A stretch of DNA of 42,015 nt. Origin: an uncultured Alphaproteobacteria bacterium (GTDB lineage Bacteria; Pseudomonadota; Alphaproteobacteria; UBA7985; CAJQQZ01). The position numbers and the translations under genes are program-made. Of this stretch, positions 7,564 to 29,173 are shown in pieces (within the stretch, counting starts at the first letter, position 1; each line of letters begins with the position of its first letter). Under the pieces are notes generated by a model. It did no database searches and was not told the origin of the DNA. It was given only the letters and a program-made list of their open reading frames with translations. The DNA is taken from positions 1-42,015 of the forward strand of contig CAJQQZ010000072.1 in the NCBI GenBank assembly GCA_905480575.1. The letters run 5' to 3'.

Positions 7564-8499
7564 ATGGCAAAACCAGTAATTATTACTTGCGCAGTAACCG
7601 GTGGCATCCACACACCAACCATGTCCCCTCACCTGCCAATCACGCCGCAGGAAATCGCGACAGCCTCTATTGAGGCGGCAGAAGCCGGGGCTTCTATCAT
7701 CCACCTCCATGCCCGCGATCCGGAGACTGGTAAACCAGACCCACGCCCTGAGACTTTCATGGAGTTTCTACCGGTCATCAAGCAGTCAACAGACGCCGTC
7801 GTCAACGTCTCCACCGGTGGTGGGCTCGGCATGACGATTGACGAGCGTCTGGCGGCGGCGACTACTGCCAGTCCAGAGATGGCGTCGCTCAACATGGGCT
7901 CGATCAACTTTGGCCTCTTTCCCTTGCTCGACAAATACTCAGATGCAGACTGGAAGCATGATTGGGAAAAACCCTTCCTGGAGATGACCAAGGATTTTAT
8001 CTTCCCCAATACCTTTGCTTCCATCGAGTACGTCCTAAAGAACCTCGGAGAAGAACACGGTACTAAGTTTGAGTTCGAATGCTACGACCTTGGCCACCTC
8101 TACAACCTGGCCTACTTCGTCGACAAAGGTCTGATCAAGCCACCATTCTTTATCCAGATGATCTTCGGCATCATGGGCGGCATGGGCGCAGATCCTGACA
8201 ATCTACAGCATGTTCACAACACGGCGCAGAAGCTCTTTGGTGACGATTATGAATGGTCCGTTCTAGCCGCTGGTCGTCATCAAATGCCTTTTGCAACCCA
8301 GTCGGCGATCCTCGGTGGCAACATTCGTGTGGGACTAGAAGACTCTCTCTACATAGGGCCAAAGAAACTTGCGACATCCAACGCTGAGCAAGTTCTCAAA
8401 ATCAGATCAATTATAGAAAACCTCGGCCTGACCGTGGCAACGCCTGATGAAGCAAGAGAACGCCTCGCTCTCAAGGGCGGTGATATGGTGAAGTTTTGA
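7564..8499 (+). CDS. BKACE family beta-keto acid cleavage enzyme (DUF849)
   Basis: A 311-residue member of the BKACE (DUF849) family. These zinc enzymes condense a beta-keto acid with acetyl-CoA and split it to acetoacetate and a new CoA ester. Seen here are the N-terminal TGGIHTPTMSPHLPITPQEI segment, the zinc-binding HLHARDPETG motif, the NVSTGGG loop and AAGRHQ followed by GLEDSLY, which hold the expected Arg and Glu active-site residues. An AGGAGAAG ribosome-binding site precedes the ATG. In carnitine degradation the homologous enzyme cleaves dehydrocarnitine to betainyl-CoA and acetoacetate. The carnitine-dehydrogenase-like gene two genes downstream makes that reaction the leading guess. 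No betainyl-CoA thioesterase is visible in this window. Confidence 0.9.
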   Translation: MAKPVIITCAVTGGIHTPTMSPHLPITPQEIATASIEAAEAGASIIHLHARDPETGKPDPRPETFMEFLPVIKQSTDAVVNVSTGGGLGMTIDERLAAATTASPEMASLNMGSINFGLFPLLDKYSDADWKHDWEKPFLEMTKDFIFPNTFASIEYVLKNLGEEHGTKFEFECYDLGHLYNLAYFVDKGLIKPPFFIQMIFGIMGGMGADPDNLQHVHNTAQKLFGDDYEWSVLAAGRHQMPFATQSAILGGNIRVGLEDSLYIGPKKLATSNAEQVLKIRSIIENLGLTVATPDEARERLALKGGDMVKF

Positions 8500-8518
8500 T
8501 GCTGGGCCTTACACTCAG

Positions 8519-8644
8519 TTTGTCACCCCAGAATTTCCGTAGGAAATATCAGGGATCTTCGCATCAATTAAAACAAGTCATTCCAGTGAAACAGAGACCC
8601 CTGATATTTTCTTCGCTTTGCTTCGAAAATTCTGGGGTGACAAA
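8519..8644. repeat. Dispersed palindromic repeat, copy 1
   Basis: A long intergenic inverted repeat between the BKACE gene and the second SDR. The outer arms (8519-8536 and 8627-8644) are perfectly complementary over 18 bases and read TTTGTCACCCCAGAATTT from the left. An inner pair, GGAAATATCAGGG against CCCTGATATTTTC, extends the hairpin. It shares its ends and the internal ATATCAGGGATCT block with copies near 10371 and 11204. When transcribed it would form a strong structure within the operon and could separate expression of the genes on each side. Confidence 0.88.
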
Positions 8645-8667
8645 ATAAAGATAAAGGTTTGCAAGTC

Positions 8668-9423
8668 GTGACAAGACTAGAAAACAAAACCGCCGTTGTC
8701 ACGGGAGGTCGTCAAGGCATCGGCCGAGCTATCGTCGATGCTTTTGTTCGTGAAGGTGCCAAGGTTCTGACTTGTGGGCGAGGTTCTAGGCCTGGCGACT
8801 TACCATCAGATGTCATTTGGCAGCAAACGGACGTAGCCAAGAAATCTGATATCGAAGATCTCTTATCGATGGCCAGAGCTAAGTTGGGCGCAATCTCTAT
8901 CCTCGTCAACAACGCCGGTGTCCAAATCGAGAAAACCGTTCTCGACACAACGGACGAAGACTGGGACATCTTGATGGGCGCCAATGCAAAAGGCCTCTTC
9001 ATGGCTTGTCGTACCTTCATCCCGAACATGAGCCTTGGCGGTTCGATCATTAACATCGGTTCCATTTCTGGCAACACAGCTGATCCTGGATTAGCGCTCT
9101 ACAACGCCTCAAAAGCTTTCGTGCATGGCCTGACTAAATCCATCGCTGTCGATCATGGTCCAGCCATTCGTTGCAACGCCATCTGTCCTGGTTGGATCAT
9201 GACAGGCATGGCGGACGCTGCTTTTGAGATGGCCAACAATCCAGACGCCGCCAAACTCGATGCTGTGGCCAGGCACCCTGCAGGCCGATTTGGCCAACCT
9301 TCTGACATTGCAGCGATGGCGGTTTGGCTGGCCTCTGACGAAGCGACTTTTGCGACCGGCCAGCTCTTTACAATCGATGGCGGCATGACCGCAGCCTCTC
9401 CCCTCAATCCAGGACTATTTTGA
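8668..9423 (+). CDS. SDR-family oxidoreductase (second paralogue)
   Basis: A 251-residue classical SDR with TGGRQGIG cofactor motif, NNAGVQIEKT, catalytic Ser in NIGSISG and YNASK, and the NAICPGWIMTGM loop. I chose the GTG at 8668 because an AAAGG lies 10 bases upstream; the TTG at 8659 is too close to that site. A CGR pair after the second strand suggests NADP preference, unlike the first SDR, but this is tentative. Its stop overlaps the next gene's ATG (TGATG). A palindromic repeat separates it from BKACE, so the cluster may have been joined from two parts. It is homologous to the SDR at 6788; the two might act on opposite stereoisomers or successive intermediates. Confidence 0.85.
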   Translation: MTRLENKTAVVTGGRQGIGRAIVDAFVREGAKVLTCGRGSRPGDLPSDVIWQQTDVAKKSDIEDLLSMARAKLGAISILVNNAGVQIEKTVLDTTDEDWDILMGANAKGLFMACRTFIPNMSLGGSIINIGSISGNTADPGLALYNASKAFVHGLTKSIAVDHGPAIRCNAICPGWIMTGMADAAFEMANNPDAAKLDAVARHPAGRFGQPSDIAAMAVWLASDEATFATGQLFTIDGGMTAASPLNPGLF

Positions 9424-10358
9424 TGAGCAAAGTTGAAAACACAGCCGTGCTTGGCGCTGGTGTCATTGGTGCCAGCTGGACCGCACTCTTTTTAGCAGCT
9501 GGTTGTCGTGTCGACGTGTTTGATTTGGCAGAGAACGCCGAGAAATCTGTGCGTGATTACGTTGAGCGTGCCTGGCCGACGCTGACCGAACTGGGTCTGG
9601 CAGAGAATGGCGATCCCGACAACATTCGCTTCTTCTCTGATGCCGCTTCAGCCGTGAAAGAAGCTGAATTCATTCAGGAGAACGTGCCAGAACGACTACC
9701 GATCAAACACGCGCTCTACCAGGAGATCGAACCTCACTTGGCGCCCGAAGCCATTGTTGCCTCTTCTGCCTCCGGTTTGATGGTCAGTGAGATGCAGCTG
9801 GGCTGGAAAGATCCTTCTCGGTTCCTGCTCGCGCACCCGTTCAACCCGCCTCATCTGATCCCGCTTGTTGAACTGCTAACCAACGACAAGACAGCAGACG
9901 GCGTTATGGAAGCCGCTGAGGCCTTCTTCAAACAAGTCGGCAAAGTCACCATTCGCGTCAACAAAGAAGTCCCAGCCCACGTGGCCAACCGCCTACAAGC
10001 CGCGCTCTGGCGAGAAGCCATTCATCTAGTGGAAGACGGTGTTGCCTCCGTTGAGGACGTCGACACCGCCGTATGGGCCGGACCAGGCCTGCGCTGGGCC
10101 GCCATGGGTCCGCATATGCTCTTTCATCTAGGCGCTGGCGAAGGTGGCATGGAGGAGTTCTGTAACCGCTACGGCGACAGTTTTCATCGCTGGTGGGATG
10201 ATCTGGGGGACGTTAAATTAAACCCGGAACTGGCAACCAAACTTATGAAAGGTGTCCAGGAAGAAAGTGGTGGTAAAACGCCCTTGGAAGGGTCCAGAGA
10301 CCGTGATGCCCTAATAGTGGCTATGTTAAAGGGGACGAAGGACATGCGTTCCATTTAG
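9423..10358 (+). CDS. 3-hydroxyacyl-CoA-type dehydrogenase, carnitine-dehydrogenase-like
   Basis: A 311-residue NAD-dependent beta-hydroxy-acid dehydrogenase. GAGVIG at residues 11-16 is the Rossmann motif. QENVPERLPIKH, the SSASGLM segment, LAHPFNPPHLIPLVE with the catalytic His, and the C-terminal VWAGPGLRWAAMGP motif match the L-carnitine 3-dehydrogenase/lambda-crystallin branch better than true fatty-acid enzymes. The ATG at 9423 overlaps the SDR stop. Oxidation of a beta-hydroxy acid here would give a beta-keto acid, the substrate class of the BKACE enzyme upstream. That functional link is strong by family knowledge, but carnitine itself as substrate is inferred. Confidence 0.88.
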   Translation: MSKVENTAVLGAGVIGASWTALFLAAGCRVDVFDLAENAEKSVRDYVERAWPTLTELGLAENGDPDNIRFFSDAASAVKEAEFIQENVPERLPIKHALYQEIEPHLAPEAIVASSASGLMVSEMQLGWKDPSRFLLAHPFNPPHLIPLVELLTNDKTADGVMEAAEAFFKQVGKVTIRVNKEVPAHVANRLQAALWREAIHLVEDGVASVEDVDTAVWAGPGLRWAAMGPHMLFHLGAGEGGMEEFCNRYGDSFHRWWDDLGDVKLNPELATKLMKGVQEESGGKTPLEGSRDRDALIVAMLKGTKDMRSI

Positions 10359-10370
10359 AACCCCACAAAC

Positions 10371-10484
10371 TTGTCATCCCAGAATTTTCATCTAGTGGAA
10401 ATATCAGGGATCTTTTGTCCAACAAGGCGAATAAAGCCTGTTGGAGATCCCTGCTCTACGCTACGCTTCGGCTAGAATGACAGT
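10371..10484. repeat. Dispersed palindromic repeat, copy 2
   Basis: The second copy of the intergenic element, lying between convergent genes. It opens with TTGTCATCCCAGAATTTTC and contains GGAAATATCAGGGATCTT, nearly the same as copy 1 in the same orientation. Inner arms CCAACAAGGC/GCCTGTTGG and AGGGATCT/AGATCCCT fold it into a hairpin, and it closes with CGGCTAGAATGACAG. It could act as a two-way transcription terminator here. Confidence 0.85.
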
Positions 10485-10496
10485 TGGGGGACTGTC

Positions 10497-11135
10497 TTAA
10501 AAACTCTGGCGATAAGTCGCCAGCTTCACGCCGAAACCAATGAAAACAACACCAGTCACGCCTTTCAACCATCTCTGGAAGATCGGGTTCTTCGCGCCTT
10601 TTGCAAGAACTGCAAAGAGCAAAATCATCGATCCAAACCATACCGCATTAATCATCGAATGAATGAAAACAAGGAAGAATGCCGACAATGCTGCGCCACT
10701 CACCGACTCAATGAACTGTGGAAAAACCGCGAGGTAAAACATCGAAACCTTCGGGTTAAGTGCATTTGTCAAAAATCCCTCGACGTAGGCATTTACCAAG
10801 TTTCTCTTCCGCTTCGCTGGCGATATTTCAGGCGTTACACCAATGCCTTGATAAGCAGCCCAAAGAGCCTTCACACCGACCCAACAAAGATAGGCAGCAC
10901 CCAGATATTTTACGATGGAAAAAGCCCAAGCTGACTGGACTAATAGAATAGAAATACCAAGAATGGAAAGCGCACCATGGAGGTAAAAGGCCGAAACGAA
11001 CCCCAACAAATTTGCTAACCCTGCCGTCTTCCCGGAGGTCGGCACAGTCTTCGCAATCAACACACCGTTTGGTCCCGGTGACATAACCAACAATGCGGCG
11101 ACAATTGTGAAGGTCAGAATTTGTGAGAGTTCCAA
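10497..11135 (-). CDS. LysE/RhtB-family amino-acid exporter
   Basis: A 212-residue polytopic membrane protein of the LysE/RhtB family, which exports amino acids or their derivatives. The signature MSPGPNGVLIAKT follows the first membrane segment, with five to six hydrophobic segments in total and the NALNPKVSMFYLAVFPQF motif near residue 135. I chose a TTG start at 11135 (ahead of ELSQILTF) because GGAAAGAAG lies just upstream and the length then fits the family. The longer open frame to 11231 would add a Cys-rich tail that does not belong. Palindromic repeats lie on both sides, so it is probably its own unit. The substrate is unknown. Confidence 0.85.
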   Translation of the reverse strand: MELSQILTFTIVAALLVMSPGPNGVLIAKTVPTSGKTAGLANLLGFVSAFYLHGALSILGISILLVQSAWAFSIVKYLGAAYLCWVGVKALWAAYQGIGVTPEISPAKRKRNLVNAYVEGFLTNALNPKVSMFYLAVFPQFIESVSGAALSAFFLVFIHSMINAVWFGSMILLFAVLAKGAKNPIFQRWLKGVTGVVFIGFGVKLATYRQSF

Positions 11136-11203
11136 TTTGTTCTTCTTTCCATTGCAGGCACAGCAGGCTTGAACCGACGGTAAGATAGGTCCGCTTACCC
11201 CAA

Positions 11204-11315
11204 TTGTCATCCCAGTATTTTTGTGAAACAAAAATATCGAGGATCTCTGTCAACGAGCGTAGCAGCTTGGCACAAAGATCCCGCTCTCGGCTTTGCATCG
11301 GCTGGGATGACAAAG
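11204..11315. repeat. Dispersed palindromic repeat, copy 3
   Basis: The third copy, between the TPP enzyme stop and the exporter start. The outer arms TTGTCATCCCAG (11204-11215) and CTGGGATGACAA (11302-11313) are perfectly complementary. Inside are AAAATATCGAGGATCT and AAGATCCCGCTCTCGGCTTTGC, parallel to the inner parts of copies 1 and 2 but diverged. It would separate transcription of the 11322-17967 operon from the exporter gene. Confidence 0.86.
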
Positions 11316-12997: not shown

Positions 12998-14947
12998 TCA
13001 AATCTTCCGTCCCAATTCTAAACCTTCAAGGACTGCTTCTTCAGCTGTCCGAGGGACAATGGCGTCCCCTATTGTGTGTACTTCCAAGCCCAGACCGCTC
13101 AATTCATGCTCTAGACTGTCCTCAGGAACGTGTCCCATGGATAAGACCAGGCTATCGATGTTCTCAAGGATGATCGGCTCTTCGGACAAAGTGTCTTGGA
13201 AATAGATCGTGTCACCATTGGCACCAAACAATCTGGCGTGAGTCTTGATTTTCACACCCAGCTTATGCAGGCGGCCAACATAGTGGTTCCTTGTGTAGAG
13301 CTGTAGTGTTTCACCAGCCAGTGCGGCGTTAACACAAAGCGTCACTGAACAGCCGTCTATCGCCAGTTGCTCCGCCAAGCCCAAACCAATCCAGTCCGCG
13401 CGCCAGTCTGCGATCACCACTGATGAGCCAACATTCGCGCGACCTTCTAACAACTCCCAGGCTGTGAAAACGCTCGGCTGATCCAGTCCTTCCAGGGGTG
13501 GAACAAAGGGCTTTGCGCCCGTGGCAAGGATCAGACTATCGGGAGAGAAGTTCTCAACAAAAGCCCGGTCTACTACCTGCCCTGTGACGATGGTAACGCC
13601 CGCTGCGACCATCTCTTTTTCGAGGTTTTCGATGATGCCACCGAATTCCGCTCTGCCCGGCAAACGTTGCGCCAATTTTGCTTGCCCACCGAGTTGTTTT
13701 TCTGCCTCGAACAAGGTAACCTGATGCCCGCGGGCTGAAGCGACCGCAGCCGCCTTCATGCCAGCGGGACCACCGCCCACAACCGCTATTTTCTTTGCTG
13801 AAGTCGTAGGGATGACTTGTGTGAACTCAAGCTCCCGACCGCTTTCGGGATGTTGAATACAGGAGATGCCGAGGCCTTTATGAGCTCGACCTATACAGGC
13901 CTGATTGCAACCGATACAGGCGCGGATGTCGTCCAAACGTCCCGATTGAGCCTTTATGCCCATTTGGGGGTCACAAATCATCGCTCGGTTCATTCCGCAG
14001 AGATCAGCCTCGCCATTGGTTATCACTTGCTCAGCGATTTGCGGCTGATTAATCCGTCCAGTAACAATAACAGGCACCGAGGTCGCCGCTTTAATTGTAG
14101 CAGCGAAGGGAGCCACGTAAGCGTGCTCGACCCCCATCGGAGGCGTTATGTGGACCGATGCCCCTAAACTGGCTGACGTACCGGCAACGACTGAAAAGTA
14201 ATCCAGCTCACTGTCGAGAGCGGAGGTTATCTCAACCACCTCTTCGCCAGATAAACCCAGGCTATCCATCTCAGTGGCTGAAATTCTCAACCCTACGACC
14301 TTGCCTGGAGCCGAGGTTCGAATTGCTTTCACTGTTTCTCGAACGAAGTTCAATCGACGCTGGAAATCCCCGCCCCAATGATCATCGCGGAGGTTCACCA
14401 AGGGATTCAGAAACTGAGCTGGCAAATAGCCATGGCTGCCCACAACTTCGAATCCGTCAAACCCAGCCTCAGCCAGGATTGCCGCCGTATCACCGTAGCC
14501 TTTGATGATATCTCTGATCAGTGCATCAGACATTGGCTTGGGCATGATGTGGAAACGTTCATTGGGCACTGCTGAAGGTGCATAAGCCACGGGCAACATC
14601 CCACCCTTGGCCGACAAAATCTCTCGTCCAGGATGAAACAACTGAGCAAAGTTCCTGGCACCATGGGCCTGACAGGTATCAATCAGGCGCTTGTAGTGAG
14701 GGATGACATCACGGTTCTGAGCTTTGAGAAGATTGGCCGAAAAGCCAGCGGTTTCATGAACGGCAACAATCTCCGAAACAATCAACCCCGCGCCGCCTTT
14801 GGCCCGCGCCTCATGGTAAGCGATCAAGCGATCACCCGGCACGTCGTCACAAAGGTAGGTGTGGTGACCCGGCGAGACGATCCTGTTTTTGACCAAACAA
14901 GACCCGACTTCGATCTCCGAAAAAAGATTGGGCAACAAAGCGCTCAT
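12998..14947 (-). CDS. DgcA/TMADH-like FMN-FeS-FAD amine demethylase
   Basis: A 649-residue fusion of an old-yellow-enzyme barrel and a pyridine-nucleotide disulfide-reductase-like domain. It carries the substrate-cavity and FMN motifs of the trimethylamine dehydrogenase/DgcA/stachydrine demethylase family (NFAQLFHPGRE, GFDGFEVVGSHGYLPAQFLNP, HWGG). A [4Fe-4S] cluster motif follows: CIGCNQACIG with another Cys in SCIQHP. The second half starts with IAVVGGGPAGMKAA. 2,4-dienoyl-CoA reductases share this layout, but the MttB-family gene overlapping its start (one base, TGATG) favours a methylated-amine substrate. DgcA removes a methyl group from dimethylglycine, releasing formaldehyde; whether this protein does the same is inference. 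Confidence 0.85.
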   Translation of the reverse strand: MSALLPNLFSEIEVGSCLVKNRIVSPGHHTYLCDDVPGDRLIAYHEARAKGGAGLIVSEIVAVHETAGFSANLLKAQNRDVIPHYKRLIDTCQAHGARNFAQLFHPGREILSAKGGMLPVAYAPSAVPNERFHIMPKPMSDALIRDIIKGYGDTAAILAEAGFDGFEVVGSHGYLPAQFLNPLVNLRDDHWGGDFQRRLNFVRETVKAIRTSAPGKVVGLRISATEMDSLGLSGEEVVEITSALDSELDYFSVVAGTSASLGASVHITPPMGVEHAYVAPFAATIKAATSVPVIVTGRINQPQIAEQVITNGEADLCGMNRAMICDPQMGIKAQSGRLDDIRACIGCNQACIGRAHKGLGISCIQHPESGRELEFTQVIPTTSAKKIAVVGGGPAGMKAAAVASARGHQVTLFEAEKQLGGQAKLAQRLPGRAEFGGIIENLEKEMVAAGVTIVTGQVVDRAFVENFSPDSLILATGAKPFVPPLEGLDQPSVFTAWELLEGRANVGSSVVIADWRADWIGLGLAEQLAIDGCSVTLCVNAALAGETLQLYTRNHYVGRLHKLGVKIKTHARLFGANGDTIYFQDTLSEEPIILENIDSLVLSMGHVPEDSLEHELSGLGLEVHTIGDAIVPRTAEEAVLEGLELGRKI

Positions 14948-16491
14948 CAAGACCGGCCAATGTCACTGCGAGAGAGTAAAATATCGTAGCGTTTACGAAG
15001 GGCAAAGTCCTGTTCATCCGACAAGTGAACTGGGTAATATGAGGCCAGCAGTTCCTTGGTTTTCTCGGTCGCTCGCTCTCGAATTGTCGAACCTCCTTGT
15101 TCTTCCCAATCAGTCGGTGTTTGACGATCACCGACAAGCGGATAGACGTAGTCAGACTTCATTCTCGCTAAAGTTTGATCATGTCCGAGGTAGTGACCGT
15201 CACCCAGACAAGCCTCTGCTATAACTTCAGCGGCAATCGATTGTGGATCTGCCTCTACGCCCCTGACTGAGCGAAGAATGTTGCCGAGCATGTCGTTATC
15301 GATCAGGTACGATTCCAGAGAACATCCCAACAATGAGGCCTGCATGCCACAAGCTTGCGTAATAAGGTTAGAGCCAGCATGCGCCGCCAAAGATACGGCG
15401 AGATTTTTCTCAGAGCCATGCTGCGCGTCAGCGAGTTTGGCATCTGTGATTCCCGCTATCGAAGATGTCGGTAGATTGAAATGTCGCCCCATCTGCGCAG
15501 CTGCTGCCATCAATACTGCCTGTTCTCCGCCACCACCACACATGGCTCCGGTCCTAAGATCAGCCACCAAGGGCTTTGGTGCAAAAATCAGTTGGCTATT
15601 GGGATCAACAAGCCAGGCAAAGACGAGACCAGCGAGTGTTTCGGCAACTGCCTGTACAAGGGAGCCTGCAACCGACGCTGGACTGGTGGCACCAGCTTGG
15701 CCAGCGGAGATAATCTGAACCGGGAAACCAGCCAAAACGGCGGCCTCCAAGGTTTCGCAAGCTTCCTCTGCAAAGCGCATTGGTGGCACAACATGACAAA
15801 CCATAACCGTTAAAAAAGGTTTGGCTCTAAACGCTTCTTCACTGCCTGCCAGGTAGTAGCAAAGCTCAGCTATCTTGCTGACATGGGATGGATCAGAAGC
15901 TGAAATTGAGACGTGCTTGGACGTGCCTGCCAAACAAGCATAGGCCGTGTTGATGTCCATAGACAAGGGATCTGGTGCATCTCGCGCAACCATCGAACGA
16001 CTGAAATGATGGACATATTCTAGAGAGTCCACTACCCGCGCTGCATTGTAGAGGTCCAGTGCCGTGGCCCCTCGATATTGCCCTGTATAAATATCGCGAA
16101 TGTCAGGCGAGGCACCACCGGAACTCATGTGAACTCTGGCTCCAGAAAGATCCAGTTCTAGACCAGGCTTGCGTCCCCAAAGAACGACGTCCCTTCGAAC
16201 CTCTATCAGAGTTTCACGAACCAACTCTCGCGGAAAGGTTAAACGCCCCCCCTTAGTATAAACTCCGCCTCTAGCTGTCACTTTCTCGATCATGGACGGG
16301 ATCGCCTGGCTGAAGCCTAGCGTTTCCATCAGGTGTAGAACCGCTTCTTCTACGTTCGTAACCTCTTGGTCAGACAGCGGCTTATAACGGCCACCAACCA
16401 CACCGGGCCAGACAGCGGGCTTGTCGTCTGAGGTGTCGGCAGCACGACTGCGCCCGCCTCTCCTGCCTCTTGGTTCTGCTTGATCGCTCAT
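14947..16491 (-). CDS. MttB-family methyltransferase (non-pyrrolysine), copy 1
   Basis: A 514-residue protein of the trimethylamine methyltransferase (MttB/COG5598) superfamily. The Arg/Gly-rich N-terminal tail (PRGRRGGRSRAA) is followed by the TIM-barrel enzyme fold with FSRSMVARD, VCHVVPPMRF, ISAGQAGATSPAS and the C-terminal DGHYLGHDQTLARMKSDYVYP motif. The gene is open from end to end with no amber codon, so it is a non-pyrrolysine member, like the characterised glycine-betaine (MtgB) and carnitine (MtcB) methyltransferases. Those pass the methyl group to a corrinoid protein, and no MttC-like gene is seen here. It overlaps the DgcA-like gene and follows the FAD dehydrogenase by 9 bases. 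A quaternary or tertiary amine substrate is likely but unproven. Confidence 0.88.
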   Translation of the reverse strand: MSDQAEPRGRRGGRSRAADTSDDKPAVWPGVVGGRYKPLSDQEVTNVEEAVLHLMETLGFSQAIPSMIEKVTARGGVYTKGGRLTFPRELVRETLIEVRRDVVLWGRKPGLELDLSGARVHMSSGGASPDIRDIYTGQYRGATALDLYNAARVVDSLEYVHHFSRSMVARDAPDPLSMDINTAYACLAGTSKHVSISASDPSHVSKIAELCYYLAGSEEAFRAKPFLTVMVCHVVPPMRFAEEACETLEAAVLAGFPVQIISAGQAGATSPASVAGSLVQAVAETLAGLVFAWLVDPNSQLIFAPKPLVADLRTGAMCGGGGEQAVLMAAAAQMGRHFNLPTSSIAGITDAKLADAQHGSEKNLAVSLAAHAGSNLITQACGMQASLLGCSLESYLIDNDMLGNILRSVRGVEADPQSIAAEVIAEACLGDGHYLGHDQTLARMKSDYVYPLVGDRQTPTDWEEQGGSTIRERATEKTKELLASYYPVHLSDEQDFALRKRYDILLSRSDIGRS

Positions 16492-16500
16492 CTGCTTAAC

Positions 16501-17967
16501 CTAACAATGGCTCCCGGCGAGCCGTCCAAAGACAGAGCCTGAAATCAAGCCGGTGCCGCCGGGATAGTTAAAGAAGAAGATGCCACCGACCAGCTCACCA
16601 GCAGCGTAAAGACCAGGGATAGGCTGCATATCAACATCAACAACTTGACCAGAATCAGGATCTATCCTGAGGCCGCCAAAGGTGAAAGTAATACCGCAGC
16701 CAACTTGATAGGCTTCAAATGGGCCCTCTTCGATTGTATTGGCCCAGTTGGATTTAGGAACGGCAAGGCCACTAGTGCTCCGACCGTCTTTGACATTAGG
16801 ATCAAAAGGAATGTCTTGGCGGACGGCAGCATTGTATGCCTTCATTTCATCCAAAAAGCCTTGAGGTTCTACACCTTCCATTTTTTGCGCGAGTTCTTCC
16901 AAAGTATCCGCTGAAACTTTTGTCACGCGTTTAATGCGATACTCGTCACGTAAAATGGACGTCACTTTTTGATCGAAAACCTGCCAAGCGAATTGATCGG
17001 GCTGTTCCAGAATAACCCGCCCATACTTAGCGTAAGTATAGTTTCGGAAATCAGCCCCCTCATCCACAAAGCGTTTGCCATGAGCATTGACCATGACTCC
17101 CCAGGGGTAGGAGTGCTTTTGAAAGTTATCACCAATTGTCAAATCACCGAATTCAGGCGCATTGTAATCCCAACCAACGGCGTGACAGCCGGACCAGTTG
17201 CCATAGGTCGAAGCCCCGACGTCAGTAGCCAACCTGTGGCCGTCACCTGTGTTAAAACGAGAGCCCCGGACCTTCGCCATCTCCCACCCTTGTCCCAGAT
17301 AGCGTGTGCGCCATTCGGTATTGGCCTGAAAACCACCGGATGCTAACACAACGGAACCAGCCGATATCTCCTCAATCTGACCGCCAGATTTGACCTTTAC
17401 GCCCATGACAGTATGCCCGTCGAACAATAGCTCTGTAACACGTGCACCATAACGGACTTCAATCCCGTTTTCCTTGGCGATCTCAGTGTGAGCGTCAACC
17501 AGCCCAGGGCCACCACCCCATGCTTCCAGTGTGAGGCCGCCCCAGAACTTGAACTTGCCATCGACTTTGAAGGCTTGGCGGCCGTAGATCGGCATAAAGC
17601 GAATGCCCTTCTCTCTCAGCCAATGCATGGTCGCATTGGACGAAGTAACCAAACGTTCGCAAAGCTGAGGATCGGTGCGGTATCGTGTGACGCGGAACAT
17701 ATCGTCAAAGAATTGATCTTGGGTGTAGGTTCCAAAATCGGTGATCGCGATCTGGTCTTCGGGAAGGTCAGGACAAAGCGCGCGAATGTCATCAACGCCC
17801 TCATAAGCGAAACGGATTGCACCTGCTGTGAAACGGGAGTTGCCGCCGTTTTCATCTTCTGGTGCCCGTTCAAGGACTAGAACCGACTTCCCACGTTCCC
17901 GCGCTGCATGTGCTGCACAGAATGCTGCGTTTCCAGCACCGACAACGATAACATCCCATTTAGTCAT
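16501..17967 (-). CDS. TcuA-like FAD-dependent dehydrogenase
   Basis: A 488-residue flavoprotein of the fumarate reductase/succinate dehydrogenase flavoprotein superfamily, closest in appearance to tricarballylate dehydrogenase TcuA. It starts with WDVIVVGAGNAAFCAAHAARE, the FAD-binding glycine motif, then NGGNSRFTAGAIRFAY. VVLASGGFQANTEWR and the C-terminal GLYAAGELVGGIFFFNYPGGTG complete the FAD site. I chose the ATG at 17967, preceded by AAAAGG; the longer frame runs into the operator. It is the first gene of the minus-strand operon and faces the GntR gene with about 70 bases between. The substrate could be a polycarboxylate or a demethylation product; I cannot tell which. Confidence 0.85.
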   Translation of the reverse strand: MTKWDVIVVGAGNAAFCAAHAARERGKSVLVLERAPEDENGGNSRFTAGAIRFAYEGVDDIRALCPDLPEDQIAITDFGTYTQDQFFDDMFRVTRYRTDPQLCERLVTSSNATMHWLREKGIRFMPIYGRQAFKVDGKFKFWGGLTLEAWGGGPGLVDAHTEIAKENGIEVRYGARVTELLFDGHTVMGVKVKSGGQIEEISAGSVVLASGGFQANTEWRTRYLGQGWEMAKVRGSRFNTGDGHRLATDVGASTYGNWSGCHAVGWDYNAPEFGDLTIGDNFQKHSYPWGVMVNAHGKRFVDEGADFRNYTYAKYGRVILEQPDQFAWQVFDQKVTSILRDEYRIKRVTKVSADTLEELAQKMEGVEPQGFLDEMKAYNAAVRQDIPFDPNVKDGRSTSGLAVPKSNWANTIEEGPFEAYQVGCGITFTFGGLRIDPDSGQVVDVDMQPIPGLYAAGELVGGIFFFNYPGGTGLISGSVFGRLAGSHC

Positions 17968-18037
17968 CTTTGGCCTTTTGAATTGTGTTTCGTATGCAAT
18001 TGTATACAATCATTCAAAACAATCAAGGGATGCTTCA
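17968..18037. promoter_or_regulatory. Divergent promoter region with GntR-type palindromic operator
   Basis: The 70-base gap between the minus-strand FAD dehydrogenase operon and the plus-strand GntR operon contains ATTGTATACAAT (17999-18010), a perfect 12-base palindrome. It overlaps a second near-palindrome, GTATGCAATTGTATAC. FadR-subfamily GntR proteins often bind TTGTATACAA-like sites, so this is very likely the operator through which the adjacent regulator controls both operons. A clean -10/-35 pair is not obvious to me. Confidence 0.75.
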
Positions 18038-18745
18038 TTGGTAGAAAAAATCGTTAACCTTAGATCAATTGGTGCATCCAAGGGCGAGCGCAAGACACCG
18101 AAAACACACGGCTCCCGCGCTGACGAAGTACGTGAAAACCTGATCCAAGCCATCCGTTCGGGTCGATACAGCCCTGGAGAGCGTATTCGTGAAACGGAAG
18201 TTGCTGACTGGCTTTCTGTCTCGCGGACCCCAGTCAGAGAAGCCTTTCGCCGCCTAGAGACCGAAGGCTTGTTGATCTTTGAATCCTGGCGGGGTGCCAT
18301 TATTGCAGACCTCAATCGGCAACAAATCTCTGAACTCTATGCTATGCGAGAAATTCTCGAAGGAGCCGCCGCCAAACTAGCTGCGCGTCATATTGACGAC
18401 GCAGAAATCGACCTGCTGGAAGTTTTGTTGGAGAAATCTGATGGCGAAAATGATCCGGGTAAACTAGCGGAACTCAATCGCCAGTTTCACGGTGCCATTC
18501 ATGATTCAGCACACAACCGCTATTTATCGCAAACGCTGGAACAGCTGCGTAACTCCCTAGCGCTTTTAAAAGGAACAACCTATTCTGTTCCTGGAAGGGC
18601 AGATGAGGTTACTGCCGAACACCAAGCGATTGTAGCGGCTATCAGAGCCCGGAAACCGGACGCTGCCGAAACCGCCGCACGCGAACATATCGCCGCTGCG
18701 CAAAAGGCAAGATTGCGCTTGCTCATGGAGGAAGGACTATCGTGA
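18038..18745 (+). CDS. GntR-family (FadR/FCD subfamily) regulator
   Basis: A 235-residue transcription factor. The N-terminal winged helix covers SRADEVRENLIQAIRSGRY, GERIRETEVADWLSVSRTPVREAFRRLE and GLLIF. The C-terminal all-helical FCD ligand domain has MREILEGAAAKLAARH and the metal/ligand-binding Asp and His pattern (LNRQFHGAIHDSAHN, EHQAIVAAI, AREHI). I chose a TTG start at 18038, seven bases after AAGGGA; the longer frame runs back through the operator and the opposing gene. The ALDH gene's GTG overlaps its stop. It probably represses both this operon and the opposite one, and is released by a carboxylate metabolite. Confidence 0.88.
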   Translation: MVEKIVNLRSIGASKGERKTPKTHGSRADEVRENLIQAIRSGRYSPGERIRETEVADWLSVSRTPVREAFRRLETEGLLIFESWRGAIIADLNRQQISELYAMREILEGAAAKLAARHIDDAEIDLLEVLLEKSDGENDPGKLAELNRQFHGAIHDSAHNRYLSQTLEQLRNSLALLKGTTYSVPGRADEVTAEHQAIVAAIRARKPDAAETAAREHIAAAQKARLRLLMEEGLS

Positions 18746-20214
18746 CTTCGATCAAAGAAGCGCTCGAACAAATTGGCGAACTGCCAACTCATATGTGGAT
18801 TGCAGGGCAGAAAGTCTCCATTGGTTCTAGGCAAACCATCGAGTGCCGAGATCCGGGATCTGGTCAGCTCCTTTCGACGCTTCCGGCTGGCAGCAAAGAC
18901 GATGTTGCTCATGCAGTTTCCGTCGCAAAGGCCGCGCTCAAAGGCCCTTGGGCAGACCTGTTGCCAAAAGAACGCGGGCGACTACTTTGGAAGGCAGGCG
19001 AGGCTCTTCATGCACAGGCCGCCCAATACGCCTTGGTGGAGACACTTGATTCAGGCAAACCTTTGCAGGACGCAAAGGTGTCCGTCCAACGCGCCGCGGA
19101 CTACTTCATGTATTATGCCGGAATGGTCGACAAGCTTGAAGGAACATCCGTACCACTCGGCCCGAACAAAGTAGCCTATACCGAGAAAGTACCTGTTGGG
19201 GTCACGGGCCATATTGTCCCTTGGAACGTCCCTCTCTCGATGGTGACGCGTGGCATTGCACCAGCCTTGGCATGCGGCAACACAGCAGTTGTAAAGCCAG
19301 CGGAGGACACACCGCTCGCCGCCGTTATGCTGATCGAATTGTTGGAAGAAGTTGGTGTACCGGTCGGTGTGGTAAATGTCGTCACCGGCTTTGGTAGCGA
19401 AGCTGGTCAGGCACTGGCGGAACACCCCGATGTCCGTCACATCACTTTCACAGGCTCGGTTGCCACCGGTAAGAAAATCATGCACGCCGCTGCGGATCAT
19501 TTGGCTTCGGTAACTTTGGAGCTTGGTGGCAAGTCCCCTCACCTCATCTTAGGTGACGCCGACCTCGACCGCGCCACACCAGACATCCTGGCAGCTGTCT
19601 ACAAAAACGCTGGCCAGATTTGCTCATCTGGCACCAGGCTCATTGTCGAGAAGGCTATCCATAACGAACTCGTGGATCGACTGGCTGAGAAGTCCGAAGC
19701 GATGCAGATCGGTCACGGCCTCAGTAACCCTGATATGGGCCCACTCATTTCGAACCGGCAACTGCAAACTGTCGTTGGGTTTGCTGACCGTGCTAAAGGC
19801 CGCGGGATCGACTTCGCATGCGGTGGCAATCCAGCTCGAGTTGCAAGCAACCAGGGCGGATACTACTTTGAACCAACCGTCGCCAACAACATCGATCCCG
19901 ATGATGAATTGGCGCAAAAAGAAGTCTTCGGGCCTGTTCTTTCGGTCATCCCTGTTGCTTCCGTAGATGAGGCTATTGAAGTGGCCAACAACACGGACTA
20001 CGGCCTGGCCGCTGGTATCCACACTAAAGACATCACCGCCGCCATGCGGTTCGCCAAGTCCGTTGAGGCTGGGCAGGTCTACATCAATGGCTACCACAGC
20101 TCAGGCGATACGGTTCCATTCGGCGGCTTCCGCGACAGTGGCATTGGCCGTGAAAAAGGGCTAGCAGGTTTGGATGCCTACTCTGAAACCCGTGCCGTCA
20201 CTATCACGTTGTAG
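18742..20214 (+). CDS. NAD(P)-dependent aldehyde dehydrogenase
   Basis: A 490-residue aldehyde dehydrogenase of the classical superfamily. The cofactor region has VPWNVPLSMVTRGIAPALA and FTGSVATGKKI. Catalytic residues are Glu260 (LELGGKSP) and Cys294 (NAGQICSSGTR), with KEVFGPVLSV and PFGGFRDSGIGREKG near the end. The start is GTG, overlapping the GntR stop by four bases. Betaine-aldehyde and gamma-aminobutyraldehyde dehydrogenases belong to this branch, and the amine setting fits such a substrate. It would turn an aldehyde from amine oxidation or from the TPP enzyme into an acid. Substrate unproven. Confidence 0.9.
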   Translation: MTSIKEALEQIGELPTHMWIAGQKVSIGSRQTIECRDPGSGQLLSTLPAGSKDDVAHAVSVAKAALKGPWADLLPKERGRLLWKAGEALHAQAAQYALVETLDSGKPLQDAKVSVQRAADYFMYYAGMVDKLEGTSVPLGPNKVAYTEKVPVGVTGHIVPWNVPLSMVTRGIAPALACGNTAVVKPAEDTPLAAVMLIELLEEVGVPVGVVNVVTGFGSEAGQALAEHPDVRHITFTGSVATGKKIMHAAADHLASVTLELGGKSPHLILGDADLDRATPDILAAVYKNAGQICSSGTRLIVEKAIHNELVDRLAEKSEAMQIGHGLSNPDMGPLISNRQLQTVVGFADRAKGRGIDFACGGNPARVASNQGGYYFEPTVANNIDPDDELAQKEVFGPVLSVIPVASVDEAIEVANNTDYGLAAGIHTKDITAAMRFAKSVEAGQVYINGYHSSGDTVPFGGFRDSGIGREKGLAGLDAYSETRAVTITL

Positions 20215-20220
20215 ACAAGA

Positions 20221-21531
20221 ATGAAGTCGCTAGCCCAAAAACTGATCTCTCAGTCTGCAGTCGAAGCTGAACGCATGATCGCGATTGTACGCATGACTGG
20301 CAGCGGGCTCCTTTGTTTTGCGCTCATCTTTCTACTGCTTTTGATGGCCTCAGAAGGCACGCACGTTCGTTCCTTCGAACTCTCTTTTGCTCTCGCAACG
20401 GCCGTCGCCTATTTCACTTTGGGCGTGACGTCATATTATTGTGCTCAAGAAGAACGCTATCGCCCCTGGATGAGCTGGGCCTTAGCTTGGGGGGAGGTCT
20501 TCTTGATTTCCCTAAACATTTATTCCGACGTTCATGAACCCAATACCAGTTCGCTTTTTGCTTTGGCGAGCCCCGTCACAATTCTGGTCGCCATTGTTAT
20601 GGTTGTTCAGGTGCTGCGTTACGACGTGAAGCTCTTATTATGGACACAAGGCAGTCTGCTGGCCATTATTGCATTGATTGTCTTTCACGATCCTCAATTG
20701 AACGACACAGTTCCACCTGAAAGCGTGACGGAACTACTATTCTTGTACAAGCCTCCCCCAAACGTCATGCGCCTGGTGATGTTTGGTATTTTGTTGATGA
20801 TCATTGTGTTGTCGGTGAGACGCTCCCGAAGACTGATGGAGAAAGTGGCTCTGGAAACTGAGCAAATAGAAAACCAGAAGAGGTTTTTGCCCGCTGAGTT
20901 GATCGATCATTTAGGGGGCAACGACATGCTGGGCGTGATGGAAACACGCGAAGAAGAACTGACGATCATGTTTATAGATGTGCGCGGCTTCACCAAGTTA
21001 AGTGAAGCCATTGGCCCTTCGGCAACAGCTGCATTTCTTTCCAACTATCGGTCCATGGTTATGAATGCGGTGAAAGATGGAGGTGGCATTGTTGACAAAT
21101 TCATCGGTGATGGCGCGCTCGTTGTCTTTGGCTTAGACTCACCAATTGAGAAGGGTGCGCAGTCCGCAATGGCCGCAGGACTATCGCTCCTGAATTCAGT
21201 TGAACAATGGAATAGCCACAAGAGTCAAAACAATTGGGAATTAAAAATAGCCGTCGCGATACATACCGGGCGATTGATGGTCGGTACCATTGGAGACGAG
21301 CGACGACTTGAGTTCACTGTTACTGGAAGTACGGTCAACCTGGCGTCCCGTCTTGAAGGTTTTGCTAAAGAAAACAATTTGCCCTTGGTTGTTTCTCAAT
21401 CAACTTATCAACACTTATCGAGTAACTTTCCAGAACTTTTGTTTGTCGAAGACAAACGGTTTCGTGGCTTCAATGAAGCTATCTCTGTCTATGGTTTGCT
21501 CAATCGAAACAAAGAAACAAGAGAAGAATGA
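20221..21531 (+). CDS. Membrane-bound class III adenylate/guanylate cyclase
   Basis: A 436-residue protein with about six N-terminal transmembrane segments (residues roughly 20-200), a short coiled linker, and a C-terminal class III nucleotide cyclase domain (about 245-420). Metal-binding aspartates are D253 (FIDVRGFTKLSE) and D297 (KFIGDG). The transition-state pair is N373 and R377 (TVNLASR). K293 is present as a purine-specifying residue, but the partner position, usually Asp in IGDTVN, is Ser370 (TGSTVN). It should make cAMP, yet this substitution leaves specificity open. The ATG is six bases after the ALDH stop, and its own stop overlaps the FrhB-like start. A signalling enzyme inside a catabolic operon is unusual. 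Confidence 0.9.
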   Translation: MKSLAQKLISQSAVEAERMIAIVRMTGSGLLCFALIFLLLLMASEGTHVRSFELSFALATAVAYFTLGVTSYYCAQEERYRPWMSWALAWGEVFLISLNIYSDVHEPNTSSLFALASPVTILVAIVMVVQVLRYDVKLLLWTQGSLLAIIALIVFHDPQLNDTVPPESVTELLFLYKPPPNVMRLVMFGILLMIIVLSVRRSRRLMEKVALETEQIENQKRFLPAELIDHLGGNDMLGVMETREEELTIMFIDVRGFTKLSEAIGPSATAAFLSNYRSMVMNAVKDGGGIVDKFIGDGALVVFGLDSPIEKGAQSAMAAGLSLLNSVEQWNSHKSQNNWELKIAVAIHTGRLMVGTIGDERRLEFTVTGSTVNLASRLEGFAKENNLPLVVSQSTYQHLSSNFPELLFVEDKRFRGFNEAISVYGLLNRNKETREE

Positions 21532-22793
21532 TGACACCAGAACAACAACTCTATGCCATCGTCGAACAAGGGCTTTGCACTGGCTGCGGGCTTTGCCAAG
21601 CCGTGGCTGGTAAAGATAAAGTCCAAGTTGTCAAAACCAACACTGGTTTTGAGCGCCCCGTCGTCGTTGGAGATTTGGATCAACAAACCGTTGATCAGAT
21701 CTACGACACTTGCCCTGGTGTGCGGGCGGATGGATTGCCGGAGACGCTTGTCGAAGGTGACACTAAGATCGATAATGTCTGGGGTCCCTGGCGGCGCATG
21801 GTTAGAGCTTGGGCTACCGATCCCTCGGTCCGTCATCAAGGCTCAACAGGCGGTGTAATGTCCGCCCTTGGCACTTATTTATTGAAATCAAAGAAGGTCG
21901 ACTTCGTCCTTCATGTGAAGGCCTCGTCAACCAATCCAACTTTTGGCGAACCGCACCTAAGCTTCTCGGAAGCAGACATTATGGAAGGGGCCGGTTCTCG
22001 TTACGGCCCAACACCTCCGCTCCTCGACATCAAATCTGTTCTAGATCGCGGGCAACCTTTTGCGTTCTTCGCCAAGCCTTGTGATGTCACGGGTTTAAGA
22101 AGCTATGCGCGTCACGATCCGCGAGTAGATGAACTCGTGAAATACACGGTTGCAATGGTTTGCGGCGGCTATGGTGCGCCATCGACCACGGAGGGCTTTT
22201 TGGAACGCATCGGCATCCAAATGAGCGAGCTTACGTCCTTCCGTTACCGCGGCTTTGGTTGCCCTGGTCCGACAAAAGCCGAAACTGCTGAGAAAACCGT
22301 AGAAGCACACTACCTCGATTACTGGGGCGACGATGAATCCATGTGGGGTCTGCCCTTCCGTTGCAAGGTCTGTCCCGATGGTATTGGTGAAAACTGTGAT
22401 ATCGCGGCCTCAGATACTTGGATCGGTGGTTCACCCAATAGGATCGACAGTGAAACCGATCCAGGTGCTAACGGCGTAATCGCCCGGACAAAAGCCGGTG
22501 AAGATCTGTTGTCTGAGGCTGAAACAGATGGCTATTTGACCATCGAGAGAGACATAACGCCTGATGACATGTCAATTTACCAACCCCATCAGATGCGTAA
22601 GAAATATGCTGTATGGGCACGCTACCAGGGCTTGAAGGAAGCAGGGAACCTGGCGCCAACAACCAATCGCTTACGCATTGAGGAGCTTGCCGCAGAGCTT
22701 CCTGATCACGTCAATGATTATCAGCGTACAGGGACCATCGAACGCGTGAAAATTGGCAAATCGACTGAACCAACACCGCAGAAGGCCTCATAA
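21528..22793 (+). CDS. FrhB-like coenzyme F420 hydrogenase/dehydrogenase beta-subunit family protein
   Basis: A 421-residue iron-sulfur flavoprotein of the FrhB/FdhB (COG1035) family. A ferredoxin-like motif CTGCGLCQ (Cys 17, 20, 23) with a later TCPG Cys occupies the N-terminus. The family core follows: STGGVMSALGTYLL, FAKPCDVTGLR, FRYRGFGCPGP, and a second Cys cluster CKVCPDGIGENCDIAASDTW. The start overlaps the cyclase stop (ATGA); Met at 21531 is the alternative. Family members move electrons between F420 or FAD and Fe-S clusters, including in organisms without F420-dependent methanogenesis. In this operon it could feed electrons to a demethylation step or reactivate a corrinoid, which is speculation. 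Confidence 0.85.
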   Translation: MMTPEQQLYAIVEQGLCTGCGLCQAVAGKDKVQVVKTNTGFERPVVVGDLDQQTVDQIYDTCPGVRADGLPETLVEGDTKIDNVWGPWRRMVRAWATDPSVRHQGSTGGVMSALGTYLLKSKKVDFVLHVKASSTNPTFGEPHLSFSEADIMEGAGSRYGPTPPLLDIKSVLDRGQPFAFFAKPCDVTGLRSYARHDPRVDELVKYTVAMVCGGYGAPSTTEGFLERIGIQMSELTSFRYRGFGCPGPTKAETAEKTVEAHYLDYWGDDESMWGLPFRCKVCPDGIGENCDIAASDTWIGGSPNRIDSETDPGANGVIARTKAGEDLLSEAETDGYLTIERDITPDDMSIYQPHQMRKKYAVWARYQGLKEAGNLAPTTNRLRIEELAAELPDHVNDYQRTGTIERVKIGKSTEPTPQKAS

Positions 22794-27643: not shown

Positions 27644-29173
27644 TTAGTACCAGGCATCAGGGAGCTCGGACTTCCTTCTGGCCACAAAATCATTCAACGC
27701 TTCTTTGGTTGCTTCATCCATTGGCGGGGTTTCGTACTCGTTGAGCATGAGGTTCCAGCGCTCGTACGCGCGAACGCGCATGTCTTTCAAGCCTTTCTCT
27801 TCCCAGCTTTCAACGTTTTCTGAATCGCTGAGTTTAGGCTCATAGAAGGCGTTCTGGTAATTCCGCATTGTATGGTCCGACCCCAGGAAGTGCCCACCTG
27901 CCTCAACCTGCAAATAGGCGTCACGGGCCATGGCATTGTCATCCAATTCAAGGCCTGTATCGAGCACTTTTTGATAGGAGCCCAAACGGTCAGCATCCAT
28001 GATCAGTTTCTCATAACCAGTCGACAGTCCACCTTCCAACCAACCAGCAGCGTGAAGTGTGAAGTTGGCGCCCGCTAGCATCGTCGAGTGCATTGAATCC
28101 GCACTCTCATAAGCCGCCTGTGCATCTTCAATTTTTGAAGCAGTCAGTGATCCACCACAGCGTAAGGGTAAATTGAGCCGCCGAGCCATTTGTCCAATGA
28201 CATAGTTGGAAATAACAGGTTCCGGCATACCAAATGTCGGCGCACCAGACTTCAACGACATGGAGGACAGAAAGTTCCCCATGATGAAAGGAGCACCCGG
28301 GCGAATAAGCTGCGCAAAGGCACAACACATCATGGCTTCAACCATGGCCTGGGCCACAGAGGCGGCTGTACTAACCGGGCCCATCGCACCGGTCAGGATA
28401 AAGGGCACAACAACGATCCCCTGCCCGCGCCCGCAATAGACCTGAATGGCTTCTGTCACGACCTTGTCGACGAGCAACGGCGAGTTGGTGTTGACGTTAC
28501 CCATGATAACGACCTTTTCGTCCAAGGTCTCTTTACCGTGCAGGATCTCTGCCATATCGACGGAATCTTGGGCACGGCTCTTTTCTGTGATGGCTCCTAG
28601 ATGTGGCTTATCACTGAGTGTCATGTGAGCGAGGACCATGTCCAGGTGGCGTTTAGAAACAGCGATGTCAGTTGGTTCGCAAATGACAAGACCACCGTGG
28701 TGCAGGTTGGGGTGCATGTAGGCAAGTTTCAACAGGTTCTCGAAATCCTTGAATTCCGCATACCGGCGTCCGCCCTCCAGGTCCCGAACAAACGGTGCTC
28801 CATAAATGGGGGCGAAAACCTGGTTCTTGCCGCCGATGACCACTGACCGCTCTGGGTTTCTGGCGTGCTGGGTAAATTCGCTCGGTGCTTTGGCGCAGAG
28901 TTCTCTGATCCATTGAGCATCGGCTTTGATCAGATCACCATGTTCACCAACTGGTTCAACACCAGCGTTCCGCCAAACCTCTAATGAATTGGGATCATCG
29001 CGAAAAGCAACACCGATGTTCTCGATCATCCAATCGACTTGATCATCCAACCTCTGCAACTGCTCCTCATCCAGAACGTCATAAAAAGGTATGGTTCGTT
29101 TGATGTAAGGGGAAGCAACGACAGAAGATGAGGCTTCTGAGCGCTGTCTGGAAGCGCGAGCACGACGTGCCAT
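27644..29173 (-). CDS. MttB-family methyltransferase (non-pyrrolysine), copy 2
   Basis: A 509-residue MttB superfamily member, diverged from the copy at 14947. It has an Arg/Ser-rich N-terminus (MARRARASRQRSEAS), then FAPIYGAPFVRDLEGGRR, VVVPFILTGAMGPVSTAAS, MGNFLSSMSLKSGAPTFGMP, LRCGGSLTASKIEDAQAA and the C-terminal GGHFLGSDHTMRNYQNAFYEP. No in-frame amber codon, so no pyrrolysine. It is first in an operon with the DMGDH-like gene, so the two probably act on successive N-methylated intermediates, for example betaine then dimethylglycine. That order is inference. No corrinoid protein gene is adjacent. A divergent LysR gene begins 100 bases away. Confidence 0.88.
   Translation of the reverse strand: MARRARASRQRSEASSSVVASPYIKRTIPFYDVLDEEQLQRLDDQVDWMIENIGVAFRDDPNSLEVWRNAGVEPVGEHGDLIKADAQWIRELCAKAPSEFTQHARNPERSVVIGGKNQVFAPIYGAPFVRDLEGGRRYAEFKDFENLLKLAYMHPNLHHGGLVICEPTDIAVSKRHLDMVLAHMTLSDKPHLGAITEKSRAQDSVDMAEILHGKETLDEKVVIMGNVNTNSPLLVDKVVTEAIQVYCGRGQGIVVVPFILTGAMGPVSTAASVAQAMVEAMMCCAFAQLIRPGAPFIMGNFLSSMSLKSGAPTFGMPEPVISNYVIGQMARRLNLPLRCGGSLTASKIEDAQAAYESADSMHSTMLAGANFTLHAAGWLEGGLSTGYEKLIMDADRLGSYQKVLDTGLELDDNAMARDAYLQVEAGGHFLGSDHTMRNYQNAFYEPKLSDSENVESWEEKGLKDMRVRAYERWNLMLNEYETPPMDEATKEALNDFVARRKSELPDAWY

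Follow-up and report, generated by a model that had tools for sequence, protein, structure and literature searches.

A probably ordinary membrane-anchored adenylate cyclase encoded within a catabolic operon of an uncultured alphaproteobacterium

Introduction

What does a class III cyclase do when its gene is lodged inside a catabolic operon, and which nucleotide does it make? The question is raised by a contig of an uncultured alphaproteobacterium, of which a stretch of 42,015 nucleotides (the window) was analyzed. A sequence-only reading of this DNA had proposed that the dose of the cyclase follows that of the catabolic enzymes, that the enzyme carries an unusual serine at a base-selecting position, and that it might sense a pathway compound or membrane state and make cAMP or another cyclic nucleotide to tune the pathway.

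Results

Layout of the locus

The genes and sites at the locus, in coordinates of the window, are as follows:

16501-17967, minus strand: TcuA-like FAD dehydrogenase, divergent; NF006130 above its cut-off; 92% identical in the sister species
18000-18009, no strand: TTGTATACAA, probable operator of GntR in the region that separates the divergent TcuA and GntR operons; no second exact match in the window; conserved in the sister
18038-18745, plus strand: GntR/FCD regulator of the FadR subfamily, opening the operon, with a probable TTG start; PF00392 and PF07729; 95% identical in the sister
18742-20214, plus strand: aldehyde dehydrogenase (ALDH), betaine-aldehyde-dehydrogenase-like; PF00171, E 7e-163; TIGR01804 is the best match but under its cut-off
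20221-21531, plus strand: class III adenylate cyclase, 436 aa, with six-TM-like anchor and catalytic domain; open reading frame; PF00211, E 4e-21; phmmer to CyaB (3r5g), E 1.8e-24
21528-22793 (start 21528 or 21531), plus strand: FrhB/FdhB-like protein; PF04422 and PF04432; start in the sister corresponds to 21531

The cyclase open reading frame is intact. Its ATG at 20221 follows the ALDH stop (20214) after a gap of 6 bp, and its TGA stop (21529-21531) shares a 4-bp ATGA overlap with the FrhB ATG at 21528, both as had been described; the FrhB start kept in the sister genome is the second ATG, at 21531. Since the GntR/FCD regulator gene lies 5' in the same direction, with its stop overlapping the ALDH start, the operon is GntR-ALDH-cyclase-FrhB, read in one direction. 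Because of the common direction and the tight spacing, the cyclase is likely co-expressed with ALDH and FrhB, and a place within the operon with a 4-bp overlap hints at toleration of, or selection for, co-expression in the present lineage. The proposal of a cyclase in a catabolic operon, with a dose tied to the enzymes, is sound as regards position and likely as regards co-expression; the parts that did not survive are the base-selecting serine and a conserved circuit (see below). On the other strand, the TcuA-like gene is followed by MTTB-family, OYE, and TPP genes in its own direction.

Membrane anchor and catalytic domain

Two parts of the cyclase can be delimited:

20293-20823, plus strand: membrane anchor, approximately residues 25-201, probably six TM helices, without Pfam match (hydropathy; low-confidence model)
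20944-21426, plus strand: catalytic domain, residues 242-402, with D253 and D297 (metal), K293 and T366 (base selection), N373 and R377 (transition state)

In a Pfam scan, residues 242-402 matched PF00211 with 75.9 bits (curated cut-off 21.9), and no HAMP domain was found. An alignment with relatives revealed that the two metal aspartates, D253 and D297, and the transition-state residues N373 and R377 are all present. With the full catalytic set in place, the protein is, judged by its sequence, most likely an ordinary membrane-anchored six-TM adenylate cyclase. Hydropathy gives four clear peaks in the anchor (25-43, 111-129, 136-154, and 181-199); further helices at 51-76 and 78-104 appear only in a single-sequence structure prediction, whose pLDDT of 45 made it too poor for a fold search. 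The anchor modeled in this way probably has six TM helices, and it may bind a ligand. The closest solved relative is Pseudomonas aeruginosa CyaB (3r5g; E 1.8e-24, phmmer). The best near-full-length relatives are 31-33% identical, and no relative was found in the genome contig collection by a pattern scan with the cyclase itself as the query.

Nucleotide specificity

The serine that had been placed at the base-selecting position is Ser370, while the analysis points to another residue as the second selector:

21316-21318, plus strand: Thr366, the actual second base-selecting residue, 7 before N373 and opposite Gly of the Cya2 Glu-Gly pair; Thr in 37 of 50 relatives
21328-21330, plus strand: Ser370, the residue named earlier, not a base selector; 40 of 50 relatives have Asp here, but solved cyclases have Pro (1wc1), Ala (2w01), or Arg (3r5g)

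The motif reads E364 F365 T366 V367 T368 G369 S370 T371 V372 N373 L A S R377, with Ser370 directly after the invariant Gly. Substrate choice in Ma1120 is set by K101 together with D157, and position 164 is that of the transition state (PMC4215837). D157 and position 164 are 7 apart, and the residue located 7 before N373 is Thr366, not Ser370. In a HMMER alignment with Cya2 (2w01), for which PMC4215837 gives Glu-Gly as the substrate pair, K293 falls opposite the Glu and T366 opposite the Gly. The register was checked with the Cya2 Tyr that PMC4215837 puts at Ma1120 position 167 (157+10), and this Tyr is indeed found 10 residues past the Gly. We conclude that the serine assignment was made in the wrong register.

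Lys293, said earlier to be kept, is indeed present, in a DKFIGD motif. It is retained in 46 of the 50 relatives and Thr366 in 37, Lys-Thr being the commonest pair; cyclases of this kind are plentiful in the class. Thr occurs at the second selector site in some adenylate and guanylyl cyclases (PMC4215837), while the E488K form of Cya2 indicates that Lys at the first site suffices for adenylate cyclase (PMC5995499). Lys at the first position with Asp or Thr at the second was taken as the mark of an adenylate cyclase, and K293 with T366 is such a pair. The predicted activity is conversion of ATP to cAMP, with no hint of an unusual nucleotide.

The remark that Ser370 replaces the usual Asp was accurate (Asp in 40 relatives, Glu in 6, Pro in 2, and Ser in none of the 50), but the Asp at this position is not base-selecting. 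In solved cyclases the residue is Pro (1wc1), Ala (Cya2, 2w01), or Arg (CyaB, 3r5g), so that Ser370 appears from these comparisons to be an uncommon residue at a site that tolerates variation. An altered specificity, in which Ser370 would make the enzyme produce cGMP or another cyclic nucleotide, would fit the absence of Ser from all relatives; it is nonetheless extremely improbable, given that the position is not the selector and accepts three other residues in known structures, that Lys293 and Thr366 form the commonest pair, and that Lys at the first position alone turns Cya2 into an adenylate cyclase.

Gene order in the sister species and beyond

The comparison within the genus involved two genomes, the sister genome (G001) being 84% complete. 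One sister contig carries OYE, MTTB, TcuA, GntR, ALDH, and FrhB genes (82, 92, 92, 95, 88, and 83% identity, respectively). When the window was compared with G001 by blastn, segments 13746-20224 and 21520-22785 matched at 76% and 75%, and only the cyclase segment had no counterpart. ALDH and FrhB are separated there by 8 bp, with no cyclase in between, and cyclases elsewhere in G001 are at most 34% identical to that of the window. Synteny ends past FrhB: other genes, one of them UDP-sugar-dehydrogenase-like, occupy 7732-11276 of the sister contig (L194), where the window has FAH-family and gentisate-dioxygenase-like genes instead.

No class III cyclase was detected by tblastn or HMM at 80 FrhB loci of other genomes (relatives 35-67% identical, flanks up to 6 kb), nor at 26 further FrhB loci with flanks of ca. 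1.5 kb; as a positive control, the cyclase HMM did detect the window cyclase and control cyclases. ALDH stands directly 5' of FrhB without a cyclase in Shimia and Roseovarius (loci L148 and L150). Conversely, 20 cyclase loci chosen among the best matches had no FrhB in their surroundings, and one of these had an ALDH, ca. 3.5 kb away. The ALDH-cyclase-FrhB order, on whose conservation the proposed circuit had been staked in advance, is unique to the present genome among those searched. Since the cyclase has no counterpart at the sister locus or at the FrhB loci, the arrangement is local, and within the reach of the search a conserved circuit linking the cyclase to catabolism is refuted.

The simplest reading is that the cyclase was gained in the present lineage. 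Alternatively, it could be ancestral in the genus and have been deleted in the sister, perhaps through short repeats at both start codons, a history compatible with the functional explanation that we favor. AAGAATGA does occur at both edges of the cyclase (20217-20224 and 21524-21531), but it is mostly a ribosome-binding site plus start codon, as expected at two gene starts; the cyclase is at no other FrhB locus, and ALDH and FrhB are also adjacent without it in Shimia and Roseovarius. Loss in the sister is unlikely on these grounds, though with two genomes compared, the sister's being 84% complete, it keeps a real chance of being right. The same 8-bp repeat was considered as a mark of insertion and dropped as probably uninformative. 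Foreign origin is not argued from composition: the cyclase GC of 47%, although under that of its neighbors, falls in the range of 46-52% found for seven other cyclases of the genome, and its codon usage is no outlier within the window.

The neighbors of the FrhB-like gene vary by species: TcuA at L097, DAO-GCVT with MTTB at L105, and ALDH at L148 and L150. Its occurrence beside differing oxidative catabolic genes suggests that the FrhB-like protein is a shared electron-transfer partner.

Regulation and cAMP signaling

The perfect palindrome TTGTATACAA lies in the divergent TcuA/GntR intergenic region; it occurs once in the window, against 0.03 occurrences expected from base composition. The segment that contains it is the same in the sister species, with divergence on either side. 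The palindrome fits the FadR-subfamily operator consensus TKGT/ACMA (PMC4494728) and is a probable GntR/FCD operator. A search for TGTGA-N6-TCACA with up to two mismatches, a pattern that does not extend to divergent CRP specificities, found no CRP-like site in the operon promoter (17968-18037), where one had been sought as a check on the tuning proposal; the 16 matches in the whole window are not above chance (20.9 in shuffles). With this predicted operator and no CRP-like promoter site, the operon, including the cyclase, is most likely under its own GntR regulator.

In the 4.03-Mb genome there are genes for 16 class III cyclases and for seven cNMP-binding proteins, at least one of which carries a phosphate-binding cassette, FGELAAIDGGSRSASV, of the kind usual in cAMP receptors. 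With 16 cyclases present, an extra membrane cyclase is ordinary in this genome. The literature yielded nothing on alphaproteobacteria with multiple cyclases, and nothing further on class IIIb or bicarbonate control that bears on the present case.

The cyclase might still be a pathway-coupled sensor that responds to a substrate, a product, or membrane state, its cAMP tuning the operon through a CRP-like protein. The tightly spaced position inside the operon, the ability of six-TM anchors to serve as receptors (PMC4821796), and the CRP-family proteins encoded in the genome are consistent with this. However, the sister retains the same operon without the cyclase, the gene order is not conserved (none of the 80 FrhB loci has a cyclase), CRP-like motifs are at chance level and absent from the promoter, and a dedicated GntR operator is predicted. 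Tuning of the pathway by the cyclase is not supported, and a sensor of this kind is quite improbable.

Discussion

We favor, with a probability of about 0.85, an ordinary class-IIIb-like (Lys-Thr) membrane-anchored adenylate cyclase whose gene lies in this lineage between the ALDH and FrhB genes of a GntR/FCD-controlled catabolic operon. When GntR leaves the shared operator, the cyclase would be transcribed with the operon; the protein would homodimerize and convert ATP to cAMP, which would join the general pool of the 16 class III cyclases and be read by CRP-family receptors. Another reading is that this lineage captured a membrane cyclase between the two operon genes, the contrast of the two sister species being the visible trace, and so newly wired cAMP synthesis to the availability of a single substrate; we regard it as unlikely.

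Six-TM cyclases of class IIIb that lack HAMP, found mainly in alpha-proteobacteria, form a recognized group that was experimentally unstudied when PMC4821796 appeared (cluster 3 therein). The window cyclase resembles them in architecture, with a six-TM-like anchor, a short helical linker, a class III catalytic domain, and no HAMP match, but no close relative of it was detected (31-33% at best). With P. aeruginosa CyaB it has catalytic residues in common, including the Lys and Thr; CyaB differs in the Arg at the Ser370 position, and the comparison is limited to the catalytic domain. Synechocystis guanylyl cyclase Cya2 shares the catalytic domain family (alignment over 245-385), but has Glu-Gly in place of Lys-Thr. 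As in other GntR/FCD (FadR-subfamily) catabolic operons, the regulator gene comes first and an operator-like TTGTATACAA lies in the divergent intergenic region, whereas the additional cyclase gene is a feature of the present lineage.

The main value of the analysis is one of correction: the supposedly unusual residue had been assigned in the wrong register, and conservation of the operon link was not borne out. The two sister species, one having the cyclase and the other lacking it, are a small natural experiment on the spread of cyclase genes in many-cyclase alphaproteobacteria-like genomes. As to the catabolic genes, the window contains two MTTB-family methyltransferase genes without in-frame stops (14947-16491 and 27644-29173), the second adjoining a DAO-GCV_T fusion gene; both methyltransferases probably serve in the demethylation of quaternary amines.
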